Of a stretch of DNA of 64,000 nucleotides, positions 2,891-27,704 are shown piece after piece (positions within the stretch are counted from its first letter, which is position 1; every line of letters begins with the position of its first letter). The notes under the pieces are model-generated. The model was not told the DNA's origin and did not search any database. It saw nothing but the letters and a program-made list of their open reading frames with translations. The DNA comes from Akkermansia muciniphila (GTDB lineage Bacteria; Pseudomonadota; Gammaproteobacteria; Burkholderiales; Burkholderiaceae_C): NCBI GenBank assembly GCA_943331105.2, contig CALQKH020000010.1:62001-126000 (forward strand), in the 5' to 3' direction. Both the position numbers and the translations under genes were made by a program.

Positions 2891-4000
2891 ATGGGATTAT
2901 CCATGAGCCACCCTACACCCCCCACAACTGCCGATTCTCAAGTCACTTGGGCCGATCCGATGCGGCAAGCAGCATGTGCTGCATGGTTGTCAGAAAGGGC
3001 AAACGACCAGGGTCTTTTGCCTCATAGCTTGCGGATTGCCTCGGCCGATGCTAGTTTTCGCCGCTACCTGCGGGTCGACACCGTGCAGGGCGGCAGCCGC
3101 ATCGTCATGGACGCGCCACCCGATAAGGAAAACTCCGAGCCCTTTGTGCGCATTGCCGCCTTGATGAAGGCCGCTGGTCTGAATGCCCCCGAGGTGCTGG
3201 ATTGGCACGAAGCCCACGGCTTCATGTTGCTGAGTGATCTGGGTGACGCCACCATGATGTCAGCCATCGATACCGAGCGCCCCCAGGCCAACCACGGGCT
3301 GTACATGCAGGCGGTCGACACGCTGGTGCAGTGGCAGCTGGCGTCGCGCCCCGGTGTGCTGCCGCCGTACGACGCCGCACTCCTTAACCGAGAGCTGAGC
3401 CTGTTCCCCGATTGGTATTTGGCCCAACATCGGGGCGTGCAACTGCAAGGCGCGCAGCGCGAGGTGTTCGACAAGGCCTTTGCCCTCATCGTGCAGCGCA
3501 ACCTGGCCGCGCCCAGCGTGTATGTGCACCGCGACTTCATGCCCCGCAATCTGATGATGCCTTTTGGCAGCAGTGCACAACTGGGTGTGCTGGACTTCCA
3601 AGACGCGGTCTACGGCCCCATCAGCTACGACATCGCCAGCTTGATGCGCGACGCCTTTTTGACCTGGGACGAAGACTTTGTGCTCGACATCACCATCCGT
3701 TATTGGGAAAAGGCCCGAAAAGCAGGTTTGATGGACTTTGAAGACTGGTACAGCGACTTTGGTGCTTTTTACCGAGCCGTGGAGTGGATGGGCCTGCAAC
3801 GCCACCTGAAAGTGGCCGGTATTTTTGCCCGTTTGACTTTGCGAGATGGCAAGCCCAAATATTTGGCCGATGCGCCTCGCTTCATACATTACATTCGCAG
3901 CACCTGCGACCGTTACCGCGAATTGGGCCCGCTGCTCAAGTTGATCGACGAAATCGAAGGCACCACGCCCCAGGTTGGCTTTGCCTACGGGCGCATGTGA
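2891..4000 (+). CDS. amgK: Anomeric N-acetylmuramate/N-acetylglucosamine kinase (AmgK-like phosphotransferase)
   Basis: Aminoglycoside-phosphotransferase-fold sugar kinase of the cell-wall recycling route that bypasses MurA; it would phosphorylate MurNAc at C1. The 369-aa protein shows the catalytic loop VYVHRDFMPRNLMM and the metal-binding motif GVLDFQDAVYGP typical of APH kinases. A second in-frame ATG lies four codons downstream and may be the true start. In related bacteria amgK is usually next to lptD and immediately followed by murU. Here rsmE follows after 2 nt, and murU sits about 39 kb away in this same window. The AmgK assignment rests on this context and on family resemblance. Confidence 0.85.
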   Translation: MGLSMSHPTPPTTADSQVTWADPMRQAACAAWLSERANDQGLLPHSLRIASADASFRRYLRVDTVQGGSRIVMDAPPDKENSEPFVRIAALMKAAGLNAPEVLDWHEAHGFMLLSDLGDATMMSAIDTERPQANHGLYMQAVDTLVQWQLASRPGVLPPYDAALLNRELSLFPDWYLAQHRGVQLQGAQREVFDKAFALIVQRNLAAPSVYVHRDFMPRNLMMPFGSSAQLGVLDFQDAVYGPISYDIASLMRDAFLTWDEDFVLDITIRYWEKARKAGLMDFEDWYSDFGAFYRAVEWMGLQRHLKVAGIFARLTLRDGKPKYLADAPRFIHYIRSTCDRYRELGPLLKLIDEIEGTTPQVGFAYGRM

Positions 4001-4002
4001 GC

Positions 4003-4704
4003 ATGCCGCGCTTTTACTGTCCCACGCCTTTGGCCACAGGCCATGCGCTCAGTCTGCCTGCGGGTGCCGCCCGTCATGTGCAGGTGCTGCGCTTGCAGCC
4101 GGGCGAGGTCATCACTTTGTTCAACGGCGAAGGTGGCGAGTTTGACGCCACCGTCATCCGCATGGGCCGCAGCGATGTGGAGGTGGCGGTGGGCGCTCAC
4201 CACCCGGTGGAGCGCGAAACCGTCCGTGCTGTGCACTTGTTGGCAGGCATCACCGCCAACGACCGCATGGACTGGCTGGTTGAAAAAGCCACCGAACTGG
4301 GCGTGGCCAGCATCACCCCATTGGTGGCGGAGCGCAGCGTGCTGAAGCTCAAGGGTGAACGGGCCGATAAAAAATTGGCGCATTGGCAGGGTATTGCGGT
4401 CGCTTCTGCCGAGCAGTGCGGTCGCAACCGCGTGCCCATGCTGCACGCCGCCGTCACCCTCAAAGAGTGGTTGGTGCGGGCCGAAGCAGGACAGCGCTGG
4501 GTGTTGTCTTTGTCAGAAGGCACGCAAGCCTTGTCGGCCATGAGCGGCAGCGCCCCCGTCACCGTGCTCAGCGGCCCCGAAGGGGGCCTCAGCCCCAGCG
4601 AAGAAGCCAGCGCACTGGCTGCAGGCTTTGTGCCTGTGACACTTGGCCCTCGCGTTTTGCGGGCCGAGACCGCGCCTTTGGCCGTCCTGGCCATTTGCGC
4701 CTGA
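4003..4704 (+). CDS. rsmE: 16S rRNA (uracil-1498-N3)-methyltransferase RsmE
   Basis: SPOUT-family methyltransferase that modifies U1498 of 16S rRNA in assembled 30S subunits. The track ORF begins upstream in another gene; the start MPRFYCPTPL at 4003 leaves 2 nt after amgK and gives 233 aa, the usual length. An N-terminal PUA-like region precedes the knotted SAM-binding domain, with the motifs VEKATELGV, SAEQCGRNRVP, LSGPEGGLSPSE and the C-terminal LGPRVLRAETAP that forms the trefoil knot. It is translated closely behind amgK. Confidence 0.95.
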   Translation: MPRFYCPTPLATGHALSLPAGAARHVQVLRLQPGEVITLFNGEGGEFDATVIRMGRSDVEVAVGAHHPVERETVRAVHLLAGITANDRMDWLVEKATELGVASITPLVAERSVLKLKGERADKKLAHWQGIAVASAEQCGRNRVPMLHAAVTLKEWLVRAEAGQRWVLSLSEGTQALSAMSGSAPVTVLSGPEGGLSPSEEASALAAGFVPVTLGPRVLRAETAPLAVLAICA

Positions 4705-18773: not shown

Positions 18774-19451
18774 TTAGCCCCTGCCAGGAATCTTGGCGAG
18801 CAGTTGCTCCACATGGACTTTGGCTTTTTCGAGAGAAGCCATGCTGCCTGTGAGGTACATGCGGCCGCTGGCACCGATCATGCTGCACTCGACCAAGGTC
18901 AGGTCGGGGGCGACTTTTTCGGCTTCGTTGGCCATGTGGGCACCGAACAGTGCCGGAGCCACTTCCATCAGCAACATGTTCTGGCCCGGGAGCACCATGC
19001 TGGCTTGGCGTGTGCGGTTCATCAGCACGGCGTGCTGATCGGTCACGTTTTCCAGAATGTCGCTGTACAGCAGGTGTGGGCGCAGCTGGTCTTCGGCTTT
19101 CGCGCCCATCCAGTCCAAAATGACTTGTCCTGCACGCTGAAGCGCTGCGCTGTCGTTGCTGTGCAACTCCAGGACGCCGAACTGCCGCTCCACAGCCAGG
19201 ATGCCCGGTTCCAGCGTAGGTTCAGCCTTGAGGGCCAGATCGATCACCCGTTGAATGGAAAGTCCGGGCGCGATCTCGACCAGCAGCGCGTTGGTGCCTT
19301 GCATCGCCACGTAGCCACGAGCGCCCAAAGGCGAACTCATCCACGAGGAGAACTGGGGCTGCAAGTCGTTGAGCGTCAGGTAGACCCGAAGCTCAGCTGC
19401 CGGCTTGGTCGGCGGTTTGGCGGGCGCGGTGGCTTTTTTGCTTGTGGCCAT
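18774..19451 (-). CDS. Tandem-domain BMC shell protein (BMC-T), first paralogue
   Basis: A 225-aa trimer-forming microcompartment shell protein with two BMC domains. The first covers about residues 22-115 (VYLTLNDLQPQF to AGQVILDWMG), the second about 118-222 (VLMNRTRQASMVLPGQNML, LVECSMIGASGRMYLTGS). It has a 20-residue Lys/Ala/Pro-rich N-terminal tail absent from the paralogue at 21061. BMC-T trimers often form larger or gated pores for substrates and cofactors. An AAGGAGG site precedes the ATG. No PduT-type iron-sulfur cysteine motif is visible. It is the last gene of the operon, 29 nt after the BMC-H gene. Confidence 0.9.
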   Translation of the reverse strand: MATSKKATAPAKPPTKPAAELRVYLTLNDLQPQFSSWMSSPLGARGYVAMQGTNALLVEIAPGLSIQRVIDLALKAEPTLEPGILAVERQFGVLELHSNDSAALQRAGQVILDWMGAKAEDQLRPHLLYSDILENVTDQHAVLMNRTRQASMVLPGQNMLLMEVAPALFGAHMANEAEKVAPDLTLVECSMIGASGRMYLTGSMASLEKAKVHVEQLLAKIPGRG

Positions 19452-19480: not shown

Positions 19481-19753
19481 TCATTTGCCGTCGAAGGCTT
19501 TGGACACGTCAGCGTGTGGACGTGGGATGACGTGGCAAGACACCACTTCACCGATTGCGCCTGCGGCTTCTGCACCGGCTTCGGTGGCGGCTTTAACGGC
19601 ACCTACGTCGCCCGAAACGATGATGGCGACGAGACCGCCACCGACTTCTTTTTTGCCAACGATGTTGACGTTGGCGGCTTTGACCATGGCGTCAGCGGCA
19701 GCGAAGGCAGCAACATAACCTTTGGTTTCGATCATTCCGATAGCTTGTGACAT
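19481..19753 (-). CDS. Hexameric BMC shell protein (BMC-H, PduA/EutM/CcmK type)
   Basis: A 90-aa single-BMC-domain protein of canonical length. [36 protein letters not shown] and the C-terminal HVIPRPH are hallmarks of shell hexamers. The central-pore loop reads KEVGGGLV, with GGG where PduA has GSG, implying a small neutral pore. It is preceded by a strong AAGGAG site and an 82-nt gap after the BMC-P gene, consistent with independent high-level translation of the most abundant shell component. It is the only BMC-H gene in the locus. Confidence 0.95.
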
Positions 19754-19835: not shown

Positions 19836-20105
19836 TCAACGCATCGGTGTGGGGGTGTCGTAGTTGTCGAGTGAAGCAATGATCAAGGCATCGGCCACCA
19901 CACGAGGATGCGCTGGGGCGAACCACCACGCGGCGGGTGCGCCGATGGTGATCATCACGCGCTCGCCAATGCCGCAACCCATGGGGTCGTAGCAGACGAC
20001 CACGTCCTTGGGGTAGTCCAGTTGTACCTCCAGCAATGCGCCAGCGGGCAATTCGGGCAGGCGCTTGCTGGCGACAATGCGGCCGATCACGGTTCCTGTT
20101 TTCAT
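19836..20105 (-). CDS. Pentameric BMC vertex protein (BMC-P, EutN/CcmL type)
   Basis: An 89-aa protein of the EutN/CcmL family that caps the vertices of polyhedral microcompartment shells. GTVIGRIVASKRLPELPAG, the DPMGCGIGERVMITIG core and the C-terminal ALIIASLDNYD match the family. Only one copy is present, enough for a closed shell. It overlaps the end of the SnoaL-fusion gene by 4 nt and precedes the BMC-H gene, so shell and cargo are translated together. Confidence 0.93.
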   Translation of the reverse strand: MKTGTVIGRIVASKRLPELPAGALLEVQLDYPKDVVVCYDPMGCGIGERVMITIGAPAAWWFAPAHPRVVADALIIASLDNYDTPTPMR

Positions 20106-21064
20106 GTTTTGCTTCCTCGGTCAATGGTGATGCCGCGCTTGCGCAGGGCCTCTTTGCCCAAAGGGGTCAAGACCGCCTTGGGGTGGATGCGAACGGTTTT
20201 GACGCTGGCTGGCAAGGTTTTGAGCAGCTTCTCGCCAATCACGCCTTTGAGCTCAGGTACGGATTCGCTCGCCTTGTGCGCCTGCAGGTCGCAACGCTCG
20301 TCTTTGCATTCACAGGCTTTGCCTTCTTTGCAAGACGGGCAGCAAGCGGCCGGGTCGATGGCGGTGGTGGCGGCCATGGCCGAGGCACCGCCGGATGAAC
20401 CACCAGTAGCACCACCTGATGCCGCCACGGCTTTCACCGCCGCTTCGTCCACACGCATGTCAAAACGCAGCAAACCCGATTGCGCCGCTTGCAACAAGGC
20501 CGGGCTGGCGGCCAGGCGCTTGAACAGGTCGGTCAGCGCGGCGGCTTGCGCGGCCGTGCCCACACGCAAGGGCACCACCACGCCGATGGGACTGGCAGTG
20601 GCCTTGTTGGGTGTTGTTGGCTTGGGCATGCCCACTTGCTTCCAGTAAGCGTCTTTGCGGGCGATCAGGCCATTGCGAATTTGGTAGACATCGGTGCCGT
20701 CATAGGTGCCGGTCTGGCCACCGGGCAGCGGCACGGACACTTTGTAGTTTTGCACCACGGTCTGGCCCAGCACGTTCATGTGCGAGTCCGAAAACTTGGG
20801 GCCAGTGGGGCTGGCAAAGCGTTCTTTCAAAAATGCCAAGCAGGCTTCGCGGCCGTTGAGCACGCGCGAATCGGGCAGGATCCAGACCACATCGGGCGCA
20901 AAGCAGGCCACGATGGCCTCGGCGCTCATGGTCTCGTAACCGGCTTCAAAGCGGCGCATCAAAGCAGCCACAGACGCGTCAGCCGCCGGGGCTGGGCTGG
21001 ACGCAGCGCCCAAAGCTTTTCGCACCTGCATGCGAATTTGCTCGCGCAAGGCGTCTGTGCTCAT
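20102..21064 (-). CDS. Uncharacterised BMC-associated fusion: encapsulation-peptide-like helix, SnoaL-like domain, Cys cluster, C-terminal motif
   Basis: A 320-aa protein I do not recognise as a whole. Residues 1-20 form an amphipathic helix (STDALREQIRMQVRKAL) followed by an Ala/Pro linker, like a BMC encapsulation peptide. Residues 31-148 resemble the NTF2/SnoaL fold (FEAGYETMSAEAIVACFAPD, TDVYQIRNGLIARKDAYW). Residues 155-215 are a second helical region, then a Gly/Ser linker, a six-cysteine cluster at 241-258 (CCPSCKEGKACECKDERC) and a C-terminal stretch with VLTPLGKEALRKRGITI, reminiscent of a segment at the start of EutT. It overlaps its neighbours by 4 nt on both sides. It could be an enzyme, scaffold or metal-binding cargo; no reaction is proposed. 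Confidence 0.8.
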   Translation of the reverse strand: MSTDALREQIRMQVRKALGAASSPAPAADASVAALMRRFEAGYETMSAEAIVACFAPDVVWILPDSRVLNGREACLAFLKERFASPTGPKFSDSHMNVLGQTVVQNYKVSVPLPGGQTGTYDGTDVYQIRNGLIARKDAYWKQVGMPKPTTPNKATASPIGVVVPLRVGTAAQAAALTDLFKRLAASPALLQAAQSGLLRFDMRVDEAAVKAVAASGGATGGSSGGASAMAATTAIDPAACCPSCKEGKACECKDERCDLQAHKASESVPELKGVIGEKLLKTLPASVKTVRIHPKAVLTPLGKEALRKRGITIDRGSKT

Positions 21065-21675
21065 GCAGCACCTCCTGCGTCGCGGATCACAGCCTCGGCC
21101 ACTGCCGCTGCAGCACGCACGTCCGACGCATTGCCCGACAGGTACAAGCGACCAGCTGGGCCCATGAAGCGGCAGTCGATCAGTTTCACGTTGGCGGCCT
21201 TCTCGGCCTCGTTGGCCACCAGCAGCGCATACGACGAGGTGGTCATCTCCATGATGTAGAGCGACTCACCGGGCAAGAGCATGCTGCCGGCCTTGCTGCG
21301 GTTGATCAAAAACGCGTGGTAGCCATCGACCCGGTCGATCACCTTGGAGGCCAGGATCTCGGGCTTGAGCACGCTTTTCTCGCTCACACCCATGGCATCC
21401 AGCACAGCAGCCCCGGCCGACTTGACCGATGAGGAGGACTGGCCGTGGAACTCCAGGTAACCAAACTGCCGCTCAACCACCAGGTTGCCGGGTTTGACAT
21501 CGTCGTGCTTCAAAGCGATGTCGGTCAACCACTCGATGTCCATGCCGGGGGCGACTTCGATCACCATGGCGGCGTCGTTGTGGCGCGGCAAGAAGCCACG
21601 GGCCGTCGAGCCCAGCAAACACATCAACTGTGGCTGCAAGCGGTCCAGAAAAATGTAACTGCGCAAAGTGGACAT
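21061..21675 (-). CDS. Tandem-domain BMC shell protein (BMC-T), second paralogue
   Basis: A 204-aa two-domain shell protein, clearly paralogous to the 225-aa protein at 18774 (LQPQ near the start, VERQFGYLEFHG, FLINRSKAGSMLLPG, LIDCRFMGPAGRLYLSG) but lacking its basic N-terminal tail. Two divergent BMC-T proteins in a locus usually mean two kinds of pore. It lies 9 nt after the aldehyde dehydrogenase stop and overlaps the SnoaL-fusion start by 4 nt. The arrangement of the second domain suggests an EutL/PduB-like permuted fold, but this is a guess. Confidence 0.9.
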   Translation of the reverse strand: MSTLRSYIFLDRLQPQLMCLLGSTARGFLPRHNDAAMVIEVAPGMDIEWLTDIALKHDDVKPGNLVVERQFGYLEFHGQSSSSVKSAGAAVLDAMGVSEKSVLKPEILASKVIDRVDGYHAFLINRSKAGSMLLPGESLYIMEMTTSSYALLVANEAEKAANVKLIDCRFMGPAGRLYLSGNASDVRAAAAVAEAVIRDAGGAA

Positions 21676-21684
21676 GAGGGGCTT

Positions 21685-23178
21685 TCAGCGAAGGTGTTCG
21701 AGTTCTTCCTGCACGATGCGCAGGACGGTGGCCTGAAGTTCAGGCGTGAGGGAGGACAACTGGCCCGGTGCCGCTTGCAAGGCCGCGCCCGAAGCCATGG
21801 CTCCGGCCCAGCCGCCCGGCAGAGGAAAGGCCACGCGTTTCCAGTTGACCAGAAGCTCGGGGCCGACGTTGCAGTCCACCGAGCTTTTGCCCGCGTAACC
21901 CGTACCAATGGTGAAGGTGTAAGGCAAGCCGGTGTTGGCACCGGTGCTGTCGTGCACCGTGCTGCCATTGACGACCACACGGTAATAGTCGAGCGCCGCG
22001 CCCCAGTACACCGCCTGCTCGGCCGATGCGGAGTGGATACCTGTGGTGTGGCCTGCGCCGCTGTGCTCCAGCATGAGCCGCGCCACGCCAATGCCCTGGT
22101 CAACGTCTTGGACCACCACGCAACCCAAAATGGGCGAGAGCTTTTCCTTGAGCATCACATGGCCAGACTGCGGGTTGGCGATGGGGCAGATCAGCGCCTG
22201 ACAGTCGCGCGGCACTTGCACGCCTGCGGCCTGTGCGATCTCAAACGCGGGGCGACCGACCACTTTGCCATTGAACTTGCCACCAGGAAAGGCGTGGTTC
22301 TGGATTTTCTGCGCCTCTTCTTCGGTGCACACATGCGCACCCTGTCGGGCCAGGGCTTGTTGCATGGGCCCGGCAATTGTTGCGTGCAACAAGAGTACAG
22401 AGGGGGCCTGGCAGGGGCTGCCGTGGTCAAAATTCTTGGCGGTCACAATGGTCTGCGCAGCGGCTTCGATGTCAGCACTGGCATCCACATAAATCGGCAC
22501 ATTGCCCGAACCCACGCCAATGGCGGGGTTGCCCGAGCCGTAAGCCGCACGCACCATGGGCGTGCCACCGGTGGCCAAAATCACGTTGGTGCGGGCGTCG
22601 CGCATCAGCGCCCCTGTCGCCTCGACCGTGGGGCGGGTCAGGATTTGCAGCGCATGGGCCGGGCCACCGGCCTTTTCAATGGCCGCTTGCAGCTCGTTTG
22701 TCACGGCGGTGCAGCAGCCCAAAGCCACCGGGTGCGGCGAGATGACCAGCGCGTTGCGCGTCATCAGGCAAAGAATAGCCTTGAACATGATGGTGGCCAC
22801 CGGCGAGGTGGAGTTGGACAAACCCACCACCACCCCAGCAGGGCGGCCGATCTCAACGATGCGCAGCGCATCGTTGCGGCGCACGCCGCCCAGCGCCACG
22901 TTGTCCCAGGCCGTGGGGGTGAGCGTGCAAGCAATCTGGTTTTTGGCAATCTTGTCGGCCACTTTGCCGATGCGGCTTTCGCGCACGGCCCACTCGGCAT
23001 AAAACTCGGCACGCGGCAGCAAGGCTGCAGCCACTTCTTTGGCCACGCGCTTGGCTTCTTCGGGCGTCCACAGCGCCAGCGTGGCAGCGGCTTGCTGGGC
23101 ACGGCCCAGCAAGTCACGGGCCTCCTGCAAGGCGGCCAGGTCGTGGTCGGCCAGGTCGATCGGGTTGCTGGAACTCAT
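21685..23178 (-). CDS. CoA-acylating aldehyde dehydrogenase with C-terminal encapsulation-peptide-like helix
   Basis: A 497-aa aldehyde dehydrogenase of the CoA-acylating (PduP/EutE/SauS/AdhE-N) class: aldehyde + NAD+ + CoA to acyl-CoA + NADH. Catalytic Cys is about residue 256 in NFDHGSPCQAPSV; the nucleotide region VILATGGTPMVRAAYGSGNP and NPAIGVGSGNVPIYVD is typical of this class. After the enzyme core (to about 460) come an Ala/Gly linker and an amphipathic helix, LTPELQATVLRIVQEELEHL, resembling a BMC targeting peptide. The order (19 nt after the dioxygenase, 9 nt before a BMC-T gene) marks it as core cargo. Resemblance to sulfoacetaldehyde dehydrogenases is noted from memory; the aldehyde is unproven. 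Confidence 0.9.
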   Translation of the reverse strand: MSSSNPIDLADHDLAALQEARDLLGRAQQAAATLALWTPEEAKRVAKEVAAALLPRAEFYAEWAVRESRIGKVADKIAKNQIACTLTPTAWDNVALGGVRRNDALRIVEIGRPAGVVVGLSNSTSPVATIMFKAILCLMTRNALVISPHPVALGCCTAVTNELQAAIEKAGGPAHALQILTRPTVEATGALMRDARTNVILATGGTPMVRAAYGSGNPAIGVGSGNVPIYVDASADIEAAAQTIVTAKNFDHGSPCQAPSVLLLHATIAGPMQQALARQGAHVCTEEEAQKIQNHAFPGGKFNGKVVGRPAFEIAQAAGVQVPRDCQALICPIANPQSGHVMLKEKLSPILGCVVVQDVDQGIGVARLMLEHSGAGHTTGIHSASAEQAVYWGAALDYYRVVVNGSTVHDSTGANTGLPYTFTIGTGYAGKSSVDCNVGPELLVNWKRVAFPLPGGWAGAMASGAALQAAPGQLSSLTPELQATVLRIVQEELEHLR

Positions 23179-23197: not shown

Positions 23198-24256
23198 TTA
23201 ACGGCGCGCCGCAGCCGAAGCCACGGCGTTCAGGTCCACGTTTTCCAGCGCGCTGAAGATGGCTTCCACCGCTTGCTGTTCACGCGGGCTGGCCGCTTGC
23301 ATGCGGGTGGTGTCGAGCAACTGGCGCATCACCGAAGGCTGGCCACCTGAAGCTGTACCCGCGGCTGCGCCAGGGTTCAGGGTGGGCACAAAGCTGCCGC
23401 AGGTCATGCGCTGACCGGCGCGGTAGTGCGGCGCGTAGTCAAACACGGCGTAGTGCTGCGTAGCGCAGTTATCCCACATGGCCAAGGAGTCTTTTTCCCA
23501 ACGGAAACGCACCATGAATTCGGGTTTTTTCACCCACTCATAGAGCATGTTCAGTACGGCCTCGGACAGGTCCATGTGCATGCCCAGCAAGCGCTTGGTC
23601 CAGATCGAATTCACAAACAAAATCTTGCGGCCGTTGAAGGGGTGGGTGATCACGGCAGGGTGCGACACCGTGGGCGTGTTTTCGATCATCTTGCACTCTT
23701 GCTCGCTGGCCGTGACCAGCATGCCGCTCTTGATAGAAGCACGTTTGGCAAAGCGCTCGCTGGCGTTGATGCGGCGAAAGTGCCAAGGCAGGTCGTGGTC
23801 GGCCTGCAGGCCTTCAAGCATTTGCTGCATGCCAGGATTGAGCGCATCGTAGGCTGCACCTGCGTGCATCCACATGGTGTCGCCGCCCGATGGGGGCAAG
23901 TCGGTGATGCGCAAAATCGACACCATATTGGGCTTCTTGCGGAAGGTCACGTCGGTGTGCCAGCGGTCGGTCTCGGGTGCTTCGTTGCCCTGGTTGGAAA
24001 TCAGTTGGATTTGGGGGTGACCCTCGATGTGCGGGAAGAATTCGTGCTGTTCCATTTCGCCAAAGTTCTGCCCCAGACGGATGTAGGCTTCGGGCTTCAA
24101 GGCCTGCTTGCGAAAGAACACGACGCCGTGTTGCCACAGCGCTTTTTTGATTTCTTCGTAGACGTCCTCTGAGCGGGTGTTGTTCAAGTCAACGCCGCTG
24201 ATCATGCCGCCGATGGTGGGCGTCATGGGGTCAACTTGAATGTGACGGAAGTTCAT
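23198..24256 (-). CDS. TauD/TfdA family Fe(II)/2-oxoglutarate dioxygenase with C-terminal extension
   Basis: A 352-aa dioxygenase; E. coli TauD is about 283. The iron triad is H100-x-D102 (DRWHTDVTF) and H268 (WDNCATQHYAVFDY); R279 or R283 should bind 2-oxoglutarate. Such enzymes hydroxylate the carbon next to a heteroatom, releasing for example sulfite and an aldehyde. Aligned by eye to TauD, the taurine contacts H70, F206 and R270 appear kept, but Y73 is F and N95 is T, so taurine is not assured. Residues 291-352 form an Ala/Gly linker plus a helix (SPREQQAVEAIFSALENV), an apparent BMC-targeting tail. A TAGGAG site precedes the ATG; the gene follows the permease by 33 nt, as in tauABCD operons. 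Confidence 0.9.
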   Translation of the reverse strand: MNFRHIQVDPMTPTIGGMISGVDLNNTRSEDVYEEIKKALWQHGVVFFRKQALKPEAYIRLGQNFGEMEQHEFFPHIEGHPQIQLISNQGNEAPETDRWHTDVTFRKKPNMVSILRITDLPPSGGDTMWMHAGAAYDALNPGMQQMLEGLQADHDLPWHFRRINASERFAKRASIKSGMLVTASEQECKMIENTPTVSHPAVITHPFNGRKILFVNSIWTKRLLGMHMDLSEAVLNMLYEWVKKPEFMVRFRWEKDSLAMWDNCATQHYAVFDYAPHYRAGQRMTCGSFVPTLNPGAAAGTASGGQPSVMRQLLDTTRMQAASPREQQAVEAIFSALENVDLNAVASAAARR

Positions 24257-24289: not shown

Positions 24290-25045
24290 TCATTGCCAGT
24301 GCAGCAAACGGCGTTCAACCCAGTTCATCAGCTTCATGATCAGCACCCCAATGAGCGCCAAATCAAACAGCAGCGACCAGACGCCGTTGACGTTGAATGT
24401 GGATCCCAGATAAGCGAGTTGTTGCCCGAGGCCACGCTCAGAAGCAATGACCTCTGCGCCCACCACGCCCAGCAAGGCGTAGATCACACCGAGGCGCAAT
24501 CCTGAGAAAAGCACCGGCACAGCGCCCGGCAATGTGACCGAGAAAAACATCTGCCGACTGCTGGCCCCCAAAGTGCGCGTGAGCGTCACATGGTCTTGGC
24601 TGACGCCCCGAATACCGGCGACGGTGCTGGACAGCACGATGAAAAACGTCAGCGAAACGCCCAGAGCGATCTTGGATCCGATGCCCAAACCAAACCACAA
24701 AATGAACAACGGGACCAGCGCAATGCGCGGCAGTACATTGAAGGCAGAGATGTAGGGGTCGCAAAAGGCCTCGAACTTGGGCCAAGTGACAAAGGCCAAG
24801 CCCGTGATCATGGCAGCGACCGAGCCAATGGCGAAAGACGCGAACACGGCCAACAGCGTGTAGCCCAGATCGCCCCACAAGCGGGCGTTGGTCAGGTTGT
24901 CTAGGGTGAAAAGGATGATACCGAGTGGACTGCCCATGAAACTCGGATCAACCCACCCGATTCGTGCAGCCCACTCCCACAGCCCCAACACGAAGCACAG
25001 GAACAGCGCATGCAGTGACAGCGTACGAAGTGTTTCACCCCTCAT
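24290..25045 (-). CDS. ABC transporter permease, taurine/sulfonate/nitrate type
   Basis: A 251-aa inner-membrane permease of the SsuC/TauC family with about six hydrophobic segments. The EAA-like coupling loop is visible in TLTRTLGASSRQMFFSVTLPG, followed by the typical EVIASERGLGQQLAYLGS. The track ORF is extended at its 5' end; the ATG at 25045 overlaps the ATPase stop by 11 nt and is the likely start. It forms an importer with the ATPase and binding protein encoded just upstream. The transported compound is presumably the dioxygenase substrate. Confidence 0.92.
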   Translation of the reverse strand: MRGETLRTLSLHALFLCFVLGLWEWAARIGWVDPSFMGSPLGIILFTLDNLTNARLWGDLGYTLLAVFASFAIGSVAAMITGLAFVTWPKFEAFCDPYISAFNVLPRIALVPLFILWFGLGIGSKIALGVSLTFFIVLSSTVAGIRGVSQDHVTLTRTLGASSRQMFFSVTLPGAVPVLFSGLRLGVIYALLGVVGAEVIASERGLGQQLAYLGSTFNVNGVWSLLFDLALIGVLIMKLMNWVERRLLHWQ

Positions 25046-25799
25046 GGTGCACCCACCCTTCTTCGAGATGTTTCCAGACTTGAGCGTAGGTGCGGTGGAA
25101 GTCATCGCTGGTCTGCAGCTCACGGATGGAGCGCGGACGTGCCAGCGGCACCTGCACATCGGCCACGATGCGACCTGGCCTGGAGGACATCACCATCACC
25201 CGGTCGGCCAGCGCGACCGCCTCTGACAAATCGTGCGTCACGAAAAGCACCGTTCGGTTACCGTCCTGACACAGCTGCAGCAACAGGTCCTGCAGCTGCA
25301 GCTTGGTTTGCGCGTCCAGTGCACCAAAGGGCTCATCCATCAGCAGCAAGGGTGAGGGCATGGCAAAGGTGCGGGCCAGGGCCACGCGCTGGCGCATGCC
25401 ATGCGACAACGCCTTGGGCAGGCGGTTTTCGGACCCACTGAGCCCGACCTTCTTGAGCATCAATGCGGCAAGCTCCCGGGCATCCGCGATGGGCATGCCG
25501 CGCACTTTCAGTCCAAAGGCTGCGTTGTCCAGTGCATTGAGCCAGGGAAACAGACTGTCGCGTGCCAACATGTAAGCCACGTTGTGGCTGCCGAGCGCAG
25601 GCTTTTCGCCCGCCACCAGCAGACGTTGACCTGCAGGCAAATCCACCAGCCCCGCGCAAAGGTTGAGCAAGGTGGTCTTGCCACAGCCACTGGGGCCAGC
25701 GAGCGCGACAAACTCCCCGGCCTTGACGTGCAGGTCCACGCCTTGCAATACCAAATGGTTGCCGTCAAAGCTCAGGTCGATGCGCTGTGCGTCGATCAT
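25035..25799 (-). CDS. ABC transporter ATPase, taurine/sulfonate/nitrate type
   Basis: A 254-aa ATPase of the SsuB/TauB/NrtD family. Walker A GPSGCGKTTLLNL, Q-loop MLARDSLFPWLN, signature LSHGMRQRVALARTFAMPS, Walker B LLLMDEPFGALD and H-loop FVTHDLSEAV are all intact. It is located 34 nt downstream of the binding-protein gene and overlaps the permease gene. It energises uptake of the substrate that feeds the BMC. Confidence 0.95.
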   Translation of the reverse strand: MIDAQRIDLSFDGNHLVLQGVDLHVKAGEFVALAGPSGCGKTTLLNLCAGLVDLPAGQRLLVAGEKPALGSHNVAYMLARDSLFPWLNALDNAAFGLKVRGMPIADARELAALMLKKVGLSGSENRLPKALSHGMRQRVALARTFAMPSPLLLMDEPFGALDAQTKLQLQDLLLQLCQDGNRTVLFVTHDLSEAVALADRVMVMSSRPGRIVADVQVPLARPRSIRELQTSDDFHRTYAQVWKHLEEGWVHHEG

Positions 25800-25833
25800 G
25801 AATGCGCCCTGGAAAAATCGCTGCTGTGGAGCT

Positions 25834-26832
25834 TCAGGGCAGGACTGCAGGCGCCATCTCTACTCTGCCCGGCAAGAGCTTGTTTTCGCTCATGGCATTG
25901 GCCACCGCTTGCATGGCGGGCACGGTGCCACGGGCCTTGAAGTTGCCGATGGAGTTGCGCAGGCTCACCTCAGCGATCTGGTCTGCGTTGGGCAATTGCA
26001 GGGCAAATGTCTTGCGCAGGACCTCCAGTGTCTTGCCGAAGTTGGCCGGGTTGGCAATGAAAGCCTCCGACAATTCCAGCATCCTGCGAATGGCGGCCAC
26101 CGTTTGCGGATTAGCTGCCGCCCATTCGGTCTTCACCGCCATGGCGCCGGCGCCTCCCCGGGTCGCCAGCATGCTCTTGGGACCTTGTCCTTTGCGGGGG
26201 TCTACCACCAGGCGGCAGGCCTTCAGTACTTCGCACATGCCGTCGGCGGGTGGGAAGGTCATGATCAGATCGACTTGGCCGCGCGTGAGCGCAGGAAAGG
26301 CGGTGTCGGGCGCACCCACGGCCACAAAGGTCACGTCGTTCGCGGTCAGGCCCACATCGGCCAGCATGTCGATCACCTGAAATTCAGCGCCGGAGCCGCG
26401 TTGGGTCACGCCGATTTTTTTACCTTTGAATGACTTGACCACACCGGGGTAGCCTTCTTTTTCTGTTTCCAATTCGGTTTTTGCACCTGCAGCCATGAAA
26501 AACACTGGATCGACGAAGCCCGCGGCGATGATGGAAATGGGGGCCTTGCGGGCAACGGCTGCAACCGCCACTTCGGTCGGGCCAAAAAACACTTCGATGT
26601 CACCCGAGAGCATGGTCTGCATGCCCAGTGGCCCACCCGCTATGGTGCGCAGTTCGCAGCGAATGCCCGCTTGCTGGCAAAAGCCTTGCTCTTGGGCCAC
26701 GCGCACCAACAGATTGCCAGTGCCAGGATAGTCTTGGAAACGCACCACGGACTGCGCCATGGCGCTGGCACCGAGGGTCAAGGCGATGGCACCCAGGGTG
26801 GTGCGTACAAGAGTAGGGGCAGAAAATTTCAT
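25834..26832 (-). CDS. ABC transporter periplasmic substrate-binding protein (SsuA/NMT1-like)
   Basis: A 332-aa binding protein. The ATG at 26832 follows GGAGACGAC, so the 56-codon track extension is rejected. A signal peptide ends near GASAMA-QSVVRFQDYPG. The body has the NMT1/TauA-type fold with AGGPLGMQTMLSGDIEVFFGP and the domain-linking KGKKIGVTQRGSGAEF. This family covers sulfonates, nitrate, thiamine precursors and aromatic acids, so the ligand is open. It is the promoter-proximal gene of the ten-gene operon and divergent from the Crp/Fnr-type regulator. Confidence 0.9.
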   Translation of the reverse strand: MKFSAPTLVRTTLGAIALTLGASAMAQSVVRFQDYPGTGNLLVRVAQEQGFCQQAGIRCELRTIAGGPLGMQTMLSGDIEVFFGPTEVAVAAVARKAPISIIAAGFVDPVFFMAAGAKTELETEKEGYPGVVKSFKGKKIGVTQRGSGAEFQVIDMLADVGLTANDVTFVAVGAPDTAFPALTRGQVDLIMTFPPADGMCEVLKACRLVVDPRKGQGPKSMLATRGGAGAMAVKTEWAAANPQTVAAIRRMLELSEAFIANPANFGKTLEVLRKTFALQLPNADQIAEVSLRNSIGNFKARGTVPAMQAVANAMSENKLLPGRVEMAPAVLP

Positions 26833-26908
26833 GTCGTCTCCAATGTGGTTCTTTGACTTGATCACCGTCAAGCTCGGTGGACACGATTTAAGTCCCCCCA
26901 GATGTCGC

Positions 26909-26975: not shown

Positions 26976-27704
26976 ATGCCATCGCCACCCCCGAAAACAC
27001 CGACTAAAGGCCGTACCAACAGCAAGCGCGCTGCTGTTTTCAAAGCGCTGGATGTAGATGAACTGAAGAAAGACTGGGCGCAGAATTCAGGCCTGACAAC
27101 ACGCTCGACCCAAGCCCTTCAAAGTGTGGGCGTGCTGCGTACTTGGAACGATGGCCAGGTCTTGCTCAGCCGGGGCCAACCCACCTCGGCGGCATGGCTG
27201 GTTGTCAGTGGCCGCGTGCGCATCAGCGTGATCACCTCGGAGGGCGAGGAGCAATTGCTGCGCTGGATGTTGCCGGGTGAAATCGCGGGCTTGAGCTCGG
27301 TGTTTGCCCAAGCCACCAATCCGGCTGACATGGTTTCCCATGGCTTGACGCAGGTCTTACACATCGAACGTGCCCGATTGATGGAACTGATTGGGCGCGA
27401 TCCGGTGGTTGCGCTGGACCTTCTTCGCATCCTGGGCCTGCGCATCAACCAACTGTTTGACACCCTTGCTGATCGCGGTATACACAGCCTAGAGCAACGC
27501 GTGTGGGCCACACTGGAGCGAATTGCCAAATTCAACAGCGTGACCGTACCCGACGGTGTGATGCTGCGCGTGAGCCAGTCCGACCTGGCCCAAGCCGCCT
27601 CCGCATCACGCCAGCGCGTCAACCAGCAGCTGAGGCACTTTCAAGATCAGGGCTTGATCCGGCTGGGTTACCGCAACATTGTTTTGCTGCGGCGTAGTTT
27701 TTAG
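26976..27704 (+). CDS. Crp/Fnr family transcriptional regulator
   Basis: A 242-aa regulator: a basic N-terminal tail, a cyclic-nucleotide-binding-like beta-roll (about 50-160, LLSRGQPTSAAWLVVSGRVRI, LPGEIAGLSSVFA) and a C-terminal winged helix (SQSDLAQAASASRQRVNQQL, with the recognition helix after LAQ). There is no N-terminal cysteine cluster, so it is not an FNR-type oxygen sensor; the effector is unknown. Divergent orientation and a palindrome in the shared region suggest it controls the transporter-dioxygenase-BMC operon. Confidence 0.9.
   Translation: MPSPPPKTPTKGRTNSKRAAVFKALDVDELKKDWAQNSGLTTRSTQALQSVGVLRTWNDGQVLLSRGQPTSAAWLVVSGRVRISVITSEGEEQLLRWMLPGEIAGLSSVFAQATNPADMVSHGLTQVLHIERARLMELIGRDPVVALDLLRILGLRINQLFDTLADRGIHSLEQRVWATLERIAKFNSVTVPDGVMLRVSQSDLAQAASASRQRVNQQLRHFQDQGLIRLGYRNIVLLRRSF

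Follow-up and report, generated by a model that had tools for sequence, protein, structure and literature searches.

Does a TauD-type dioxygenase work inside a bacterial protein organelle? Among metabolosomes, the most familiar cases house radical or B12 chemistry that is sensitive to oxygen. In the window, the whole 64,000-nucleotide stretch of DNA that was analysed, a gene for such an oxygen-dependent enzyme lies in one operon with genes for shell proteins, and the first-pass annotation had proposed that an added C-terminal tail might target the enzyme to the lumen of the shell. The genome is of the Limnohabitans type and 99.9% complete, with close matches to named Limnohabitans isolates. 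On the minus strand, the gene order is binding protein, ABC ATPase, permease, TauD, aldehyde dehydrogenase (ALDH), BMC-T1, hub, BMC-P, BMC-H and BMC-T2, with a divergent CRP regulator:

26976..27704, plus strand: CRP-family regulator, divergent from the operon, which it neighbours at almost every betaproteobacterial locus
25834..26865, minus strand: periplasmic binding protein, SsuA/NMT1-like, start uncertain (PF09084; SsuA_fam 62.9 bits, below cut-off)
25035..25799, minus strand: ABC ATPase (PF00005)
24290..25159, minus strand: ABC permease, probable substrate uptake (PF00528); adjoins TauD in most betaproteobacterial loci
23198..24256, minus strand: TauD-family Fe(II)/2OG dioxygenase, 352 aa, predicted signature (aldehyde-releasing) enzyme (Pfam TauD E 3.9e-59; iron ligands H100/D102/H268, R279/R283 conserved)
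23336..23386, minus strand: variable Ala/Gly/Pro linker of TauD, residues 291-307
23201..23335, minus strand: conserved C-terminal helical segment of TauD, residues 308-352, candidate targeting peptide (conservation, dN/dS, AlphaFold2)
23243-23287, minus strand: core helix of the TauD tail, SPREQQAVEAIFSALEN
23204-23233, minus strand: last helix of the TauD tail
21685..23178, minus strand: CoA-acylating ALDH, 497 aa (Pfam Aldedh)
21688..21750, minus strand: ALDH C-terminal helix LTPELQATVLRIVQEELEHLR, type I AldDH-like putative encapsulation peptide, past residues 9-453 aligned to 5j78
21061..21675, minus strand: BMC-T1 shell protein, CcmP-like, 204 aa (Pfam BMC; NCBIfam CcmP 216.7 bits, below cut-off)
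20102..21064, minus strand: hub protein, 320 aa, with an N-terminal encapsulation-peptide-like helix, a SnoaL domain (residues 37-136) and a C-terminal motif like PduM/EutQ/TIGR02536
19836..20105, minus strand: BMC-P (EutN/CcmL) vertex protein (PF03319 E 9e-13)
19481..19753, minus strand: BMC-H shell protein, EutM-like (PF00936 E 1.5e-26)
18774..19451, minus strand: BMC-T2 shell protein, CcmP-like (NCBIfam CcmP 168.7 bits, below cut-off)

The clustering of BMC-H, BMC-P and BMC-T genes with enzymes identifies a metabolosome (BMC) locus. Five genomes that carry the locus were searched; it was the sole BMC locus detected in each, and the PduL phosphotransacylase (PF06130) gave no match in any of them. 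Among the genes called in the locus, no alcohol dehydrogenase was recognised. With an ALDH but no complete core, the locus classifies as a metabolosome with incomplete core (MIC), and it resembles the described MIC loci in having an AldDH without phosphotransacylase or alcohol dehydrogenase (PMC4207490, PMC8217296). The main texts of these two catalogues name no TauD signature enzyme; their supplements may list the locus as an uncharacterised type.

The gene order was kept in about 30 related genomes, in another Burkholderiaceae genus (genomes G338/G642, loci L065 and L072), in Chachezhania (L032) and in a second alphaproteobacterial family (L165-L167). The order TauD-ALDH-BMC-T-hub-BMC-P-BMC-H-BMC-T, with the TauD gene first, is therefore common to two betaproteobacterial and two alphaproteobacterial lineages. 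The alphaproteobacterial loci have a TRAP transporter and an AraC/DJ-1 regulator in place of the ABC transporter and CRP.

The proposed tail, positions 23201-23386 on the minus strand, corresponds exactly to residues 291-352 of TauD, PTLNPGAAAGTASGGQPSVMRQLLDTTRMQAASPREQQAVEAIFSALENVDLNAVASAAARR, and the Pfam TauD match covers residues 8-284 of the 352-aa protein. The first-pass annotation had put the protein at about 70 residues longer than E. coli TauD and had placed all of this length in the tail. The overall figure was right (352 versus 283 residues, 69 more). Its placement was only partly so: because the PDB alignment ends at query residue 286 and TauD residue 273, the C-terminus accounts for about 56 of the extra residues and an internal insertion for about 12.

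The tail had further been described as an Ala/Gly/Pro linker followed by an amphipathic helix, for which a structure prediction of the tail alone had been suggested. As the AlphaFold2 model of full-length TauD from a 17-row alignment was poor (pLDDT 44.7), the tail was folded by itself. The model shows a low-confidence linker (tail residues 2-14, pLDDT<50) followed by helices at protein residues 308-320, 324-338 and 342-351, with a block pLDDT of 74-83 over the middle helix. The linker and the helix were thus borne out, but not amphipathicity as a distinguishing property. An encapsulation peptide should be amphipathic, its small hydrophobic residues lying along one face of the helix. The best-window hydrophobic moment of the tail (0.46-0.64) lies in the range that known encapsulation peptides span, but it does not exceed that of shuffled tails (p 0.09-0.47). 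We therefore rejected amphipathicity as proof of targeting, since alone it proves nothing.

Encapsulation peptides are defined as helices of 15-20 residues at a terminus, attached by a flexible linker (PMC11157265). With a predicted helix at residues 324-338 and a linker that varies by indels, the tail, as modelled, fits this published architecture. It shares with the peptides of metabolosome cargo such as PduP, PduD and PduL (PMC11157265) the short terminal helix, the flexible linker and the absence from homologues outside compartments. It differs from known encapsulation peptides in its position at the C-terminus of a TauD-type dioxygenase, in its up to three short helices (about 45 residues) and in its distinctive conserved pattern.

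That pattern, R..Q..SP.E..AV.AIF.AL..VDL.., is shared by aligned tails of TauDs that are 45-57% identical over the whole protein. The helix is conserved in all four BMC lineages (two beta, two alpha), while the linker ahead of it varies widely in length between TauDs, from about 20 to 60 residues. Within Limnohabitans, dN/dS was lowest in the core (0.045) and highest in the linker (0.169); residues 309-352 gave 0.089, and the helix at 324-338 gave 0.056. Judged by these rates, the tail helix in Limnohabitans is under purifying selection like the catalytic core. The tail is thus more than a chance extension, because its helix is conserved despite far-diverged cores and evolves nearly as slowly as the core.

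We compared tails inside and outside BMC loci, as had been proposed along with the targeting idea. In 90 Limnohabitans genomes, 29 of the 138 TauD-family matches reach residue 352 (one of them truncated at the N-terminus), and each of the 29 has BMC-T1 on its own contig, no more than about 3 kb away. The other 109 matches end at or before residue 311, and none of them is tailed. In the alphaproteobacterial set (385), the tail occurred on only three among the more than 150 matches listed, all three in a BMC locus. A profile search with the tail in seven genomes returned nothing else significant; the motif occurred once per genome, only on the TauD of the BMC locus. Every complete tail that we found is in a TauD-BMC locus. 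The first-pass annotation had held that a tail common among TauD homologues lacking BMC genes would speak against targeting; no such pattern appeared in Limnohabitans or among the listed alphaproteobacterial matches.

Two candidate tails were rejected in these comparisons. The H1 plasmid TauD match also reaches residue 352, but its alignment extends over hemB as well and probably continues beyond the end of TauD. In genome G1419 the match extends to residue 334 and has one stop inside. In a further genome (G1065), BMC-T1 lies near the start of the contig, and the TauD gene would fall off the contig.

Untailed relatives show the same association from the other side. None of the untailed TauDs L066-L070, L115 and L168-L170 adjoins ALDH or shell genes (for L115, this holds at genome level only), and no BMC domain was detected in genomes G1127, G196, G1064, G256, G178 and G1196. 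Genome G378, which has an untailed TauD, carries an unrelated BMC locus elsewhere. One untailed TauD (L067, in G196) stands in a similar CRP-SBP-ABC-TauD cluster without shell genes. The closest TauD outside the BMC loci (L168, in G1127) shares the active-site signature but is untailed, and its genome has no BMC domain; by sequence, this TauD is the best control for the association between tail and shell.

The tail is accordingly present in BMC-associated homologues and absent from non-BMC ones, with one exception. On a MAG contig with ALDH and BMC-T1 (L030), the TauD at 3530-4585 is 67% identical and its tail lacks the main helix. Only the last short helix is kept, so this lineage may do without the main helix or have a substitute for it. 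In one phylogenetic tree, the BMC TauDs form one clade (support 91/76); with more alphaproteobacterial sequences, two untailed long-branch proteins join weakly inside it. As the BMC TauDs form approximately one clade, the association reflects about one origin and long retention rather than many independent gains, and the link between tail and BMC may be a single event.

This history leaves room for a reading in which the tail is an intrinsic part of a TauD subfamily, such as an oligomerisation element or an active-site lid, unrelated to the shell and linked to BMC genes by shared ancestry. The closeness of the BMC TauDs to one clade agrees with it, as does the exception on the MAG contig, where BMC genes occur without the main helix, so that the tail is not strictly required. 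We nevertheless regard it as unlikely, because untailed proteins have the same active-site signature (L168) or belong to the same clade (L066/L115), because a linker of such variable length is unlike a lid or an interface, and because the tail follows the locus across beta- and alphaproteobacteria.

The preferred reading, to which we assign a probability of roughly 0.75, is that the tail acts as an encapsulation (or assembly) peptide and that the locus encodes an O2-dependent metabolosome with incomplete core, of which the dioxygenase would be the signature enzyme. The enzyme itself belongs to the TauD Fe(II)/2OG family, with the HxD...H motif and the 2OG-binding Arg in place (H100, D102, H268, R279). 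In E. coli numbering, it has retained the iron ligands, the 2OG-binding Arg266 and the sulfonate-binding His70 and Arg270 of E. coli TauD (PDB 1gqw), whose fold family it shares. Unlike the E. coli enzyme, it carries the C-terminal tail, and all BMC members have replaced Tyr73 by Phe, Asn95 by Thr and Phe206 by Trp. The resulting pocket signature (H70, F73, T95, R97, W206, R270) is common to the BMC TauDs and L168. The match to the NCBIfam equivalog for TauD (NF007104) reached 256.6 bits against a cut-off of 313, below the score for a taurine dioxygenase. The pocket changes, in particular the replacement of Tyr73 and Asn95, together with the low score disfavour taurine as substrate and point to another anionic substrate. 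An organosulfonate would agree with the SsuA-like binding protein (below cut-off) and with the TRAP transporter of the alphaproteobacterial loci.

With O2 and 2-oxoglutarate, TauD-type enzymes hydroxylate the carbon that bears the leaving group, and the product collapses to an aldehyde. Apart from TauD, no enzyme that could supply the aldehyde is encoded between the transporter and shell genes. For the adjacent ALDH, the nearest families are AdhE, EutH_ACDH and SauS, all below cut-off, and the closest PDB structure is an acetylating acetaldehyde dehydrogenase (5j78). A C-terminal encapsulation peptide is typical of type I AldDH (PMC8217296), and the C-terminal helix of the ALDH is conserved in every complete ALDH.

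We envisage the following sequence of events. The tail would draw the dioxygenase into the shell whose genes share its operon. The substrate, an imported anion other than taurine and probably an organosulfonate or a sulfate ester, would enter the shell with 2-oxoglutarate and O2. TauD would hydroxylate the carbon next to the leaving group, yielding an aldehyde, succinate, CO2 and sulfite or sulfate, and the co-encapsulated acylating ALDH, carried by its own C-terminal helix, would convert the aldehyde to acyl-CoA before it reaches the cytosol. In this scheme we infer the binding of the helix to the shell, the partner of the helix, the luminal location, the substrate, the product and the recycling of CoA. 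The oxygen chemistry of the dioxygenase would then probably take place inside a bacterial protein organelle.

Two other arrangements of the same parts were considered. The tail might be a BMC assembly element that binds other cargo, either the ALDH or the SnoaL/PduM-like hub, so that TauD is carried in with the enzyme core. The hub has an N-terminal encapsulation-peptide-like helix in all lineages in which it could be read, and its C-terminal motif resembles PduM/EutQ. ALDH and hub both have helices more typical of encapsulation peptides and could attach to the shell themselves, with TauD bound to them; the helix of TauD is unlike either in sequence pattern. Yet the architecture of the tail fits a direct shell-binding peptide equally well, and we consider binding to other cargo a serious but secondary possibility. 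Docking of TauD by its tail outside or near the shell, with only the aldehyde dehydrogenase step inside, appears improbable, even more so than an intrinsic role of the tail. Luminal and external positions look the same in sequence, and de novo external targeting has been reported (PMC6109187); a shell would, however, bring no benefit for an aldehyde released outside it, and known signature enzymes are luminal.

For the preferred reading, encapsulation of the dioxygenase, the expectation that oxygen chemistry is unusual for a metabolosome holds, although there is a precedent. The ARO BMC of Actinobacteria contains an extradiol 2-aminophenol 1,6-dioxygenase with an N-terminal extension found only in BMC members (PMC10470539). 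Both systems thus have an O2-dependent, aldehyde-making dioxygenase as proposed signature enzyme and a terminal extension restricted to BMC members. The ARO enzyme is unrelated, however, its extension is N-terminal and not helical, and it occurs in another phylum with another shell. Its AldDh is non-CoA-acylating and lacks an encapsulation peptide, whereas the ALDH described here is of the acylating type and has a C-terminal helix. The TauD locus therefore lacks the combination that defines ARO, a pfam02900 ring-opening dioxygenase with a non-acylating AldDh.

Cleavage of a sulfonate in a compartment is known from the isethionate-desulfonating BMC (IslAB) of the anaerobe Bilophila wadsworthia (PMC8667426). 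If the substrate is a sulfonate, the TauD locus would share with it C-S cleavage that releases an aldehyde beside an acylating aldehyde dehydrogenase in a shell. IslAB, in contrast, is an oxygen-sensitive glycyl radical enzyme accompanied by a phosphotransacetylase, whereas the TauD locus is O2-dependent and no PduL was found. The odds are about even that these loci form an O2-dependent metabolosome class across beta- and alphaproteobacteria, hitherto undescribed, with an Fe(II)/2OG dioxygenase as signature enzyme that is targeted by a new family of C-terminal peptides, as an aerobic counterpart of the isethionate-desulfonating BMC. Our search of the literature, including the main texts of the BMC catalogues, found no report of a TauD-type BMC signature enzyme.

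If the preferred reading is true, the shell must admit O2 and 2-oxoglutarate and release succinate, CO2 and probably sulfite, so that its permeability becomes directly testable. An Fe(II)/2OG oxygenase would join the list of signature enzymes, a locus type with incomplete core would gain a possible function, and a new targeting peptide would become available for engineering. Limnohabitans is abundant in freshwater, and the compartment may therefore matter in organosulfonate turnover there.

Several minor observations concern variation around the locus. The closest outside TauD (L168:7324-8115, in G1127) adjoins a TRAP transporter and enoyl-CoA hydratase and thiolase-like genes, and this cluster is possibly an uncompartmented version of the pathway. 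The loci L073-L077 of other Burkholderiaceae represent a different BMC locus, in which the aldehyde dehydrogenase is 33% identical and the BMC-T is CcmP-like; they are not TauD loci. The SnoaL domain of the hub has been gained or lost between the conserved N-terminal helix and the C-terminal PduM/EutQ-like motif; it is present in most Limnohabitans and in L165-L167, and absent in L014, L020, L024, L032 and L065. Finally, the transporter has been swapped in nine loci (L006, L013, L016-L019, L021, L022 and L029), where the adjacent ABC and binding-protein genes match 24290-26865 at only 46-69% identity; for TauD, ALDH and most shell genes, identity to the window's genes is about 89-100%.
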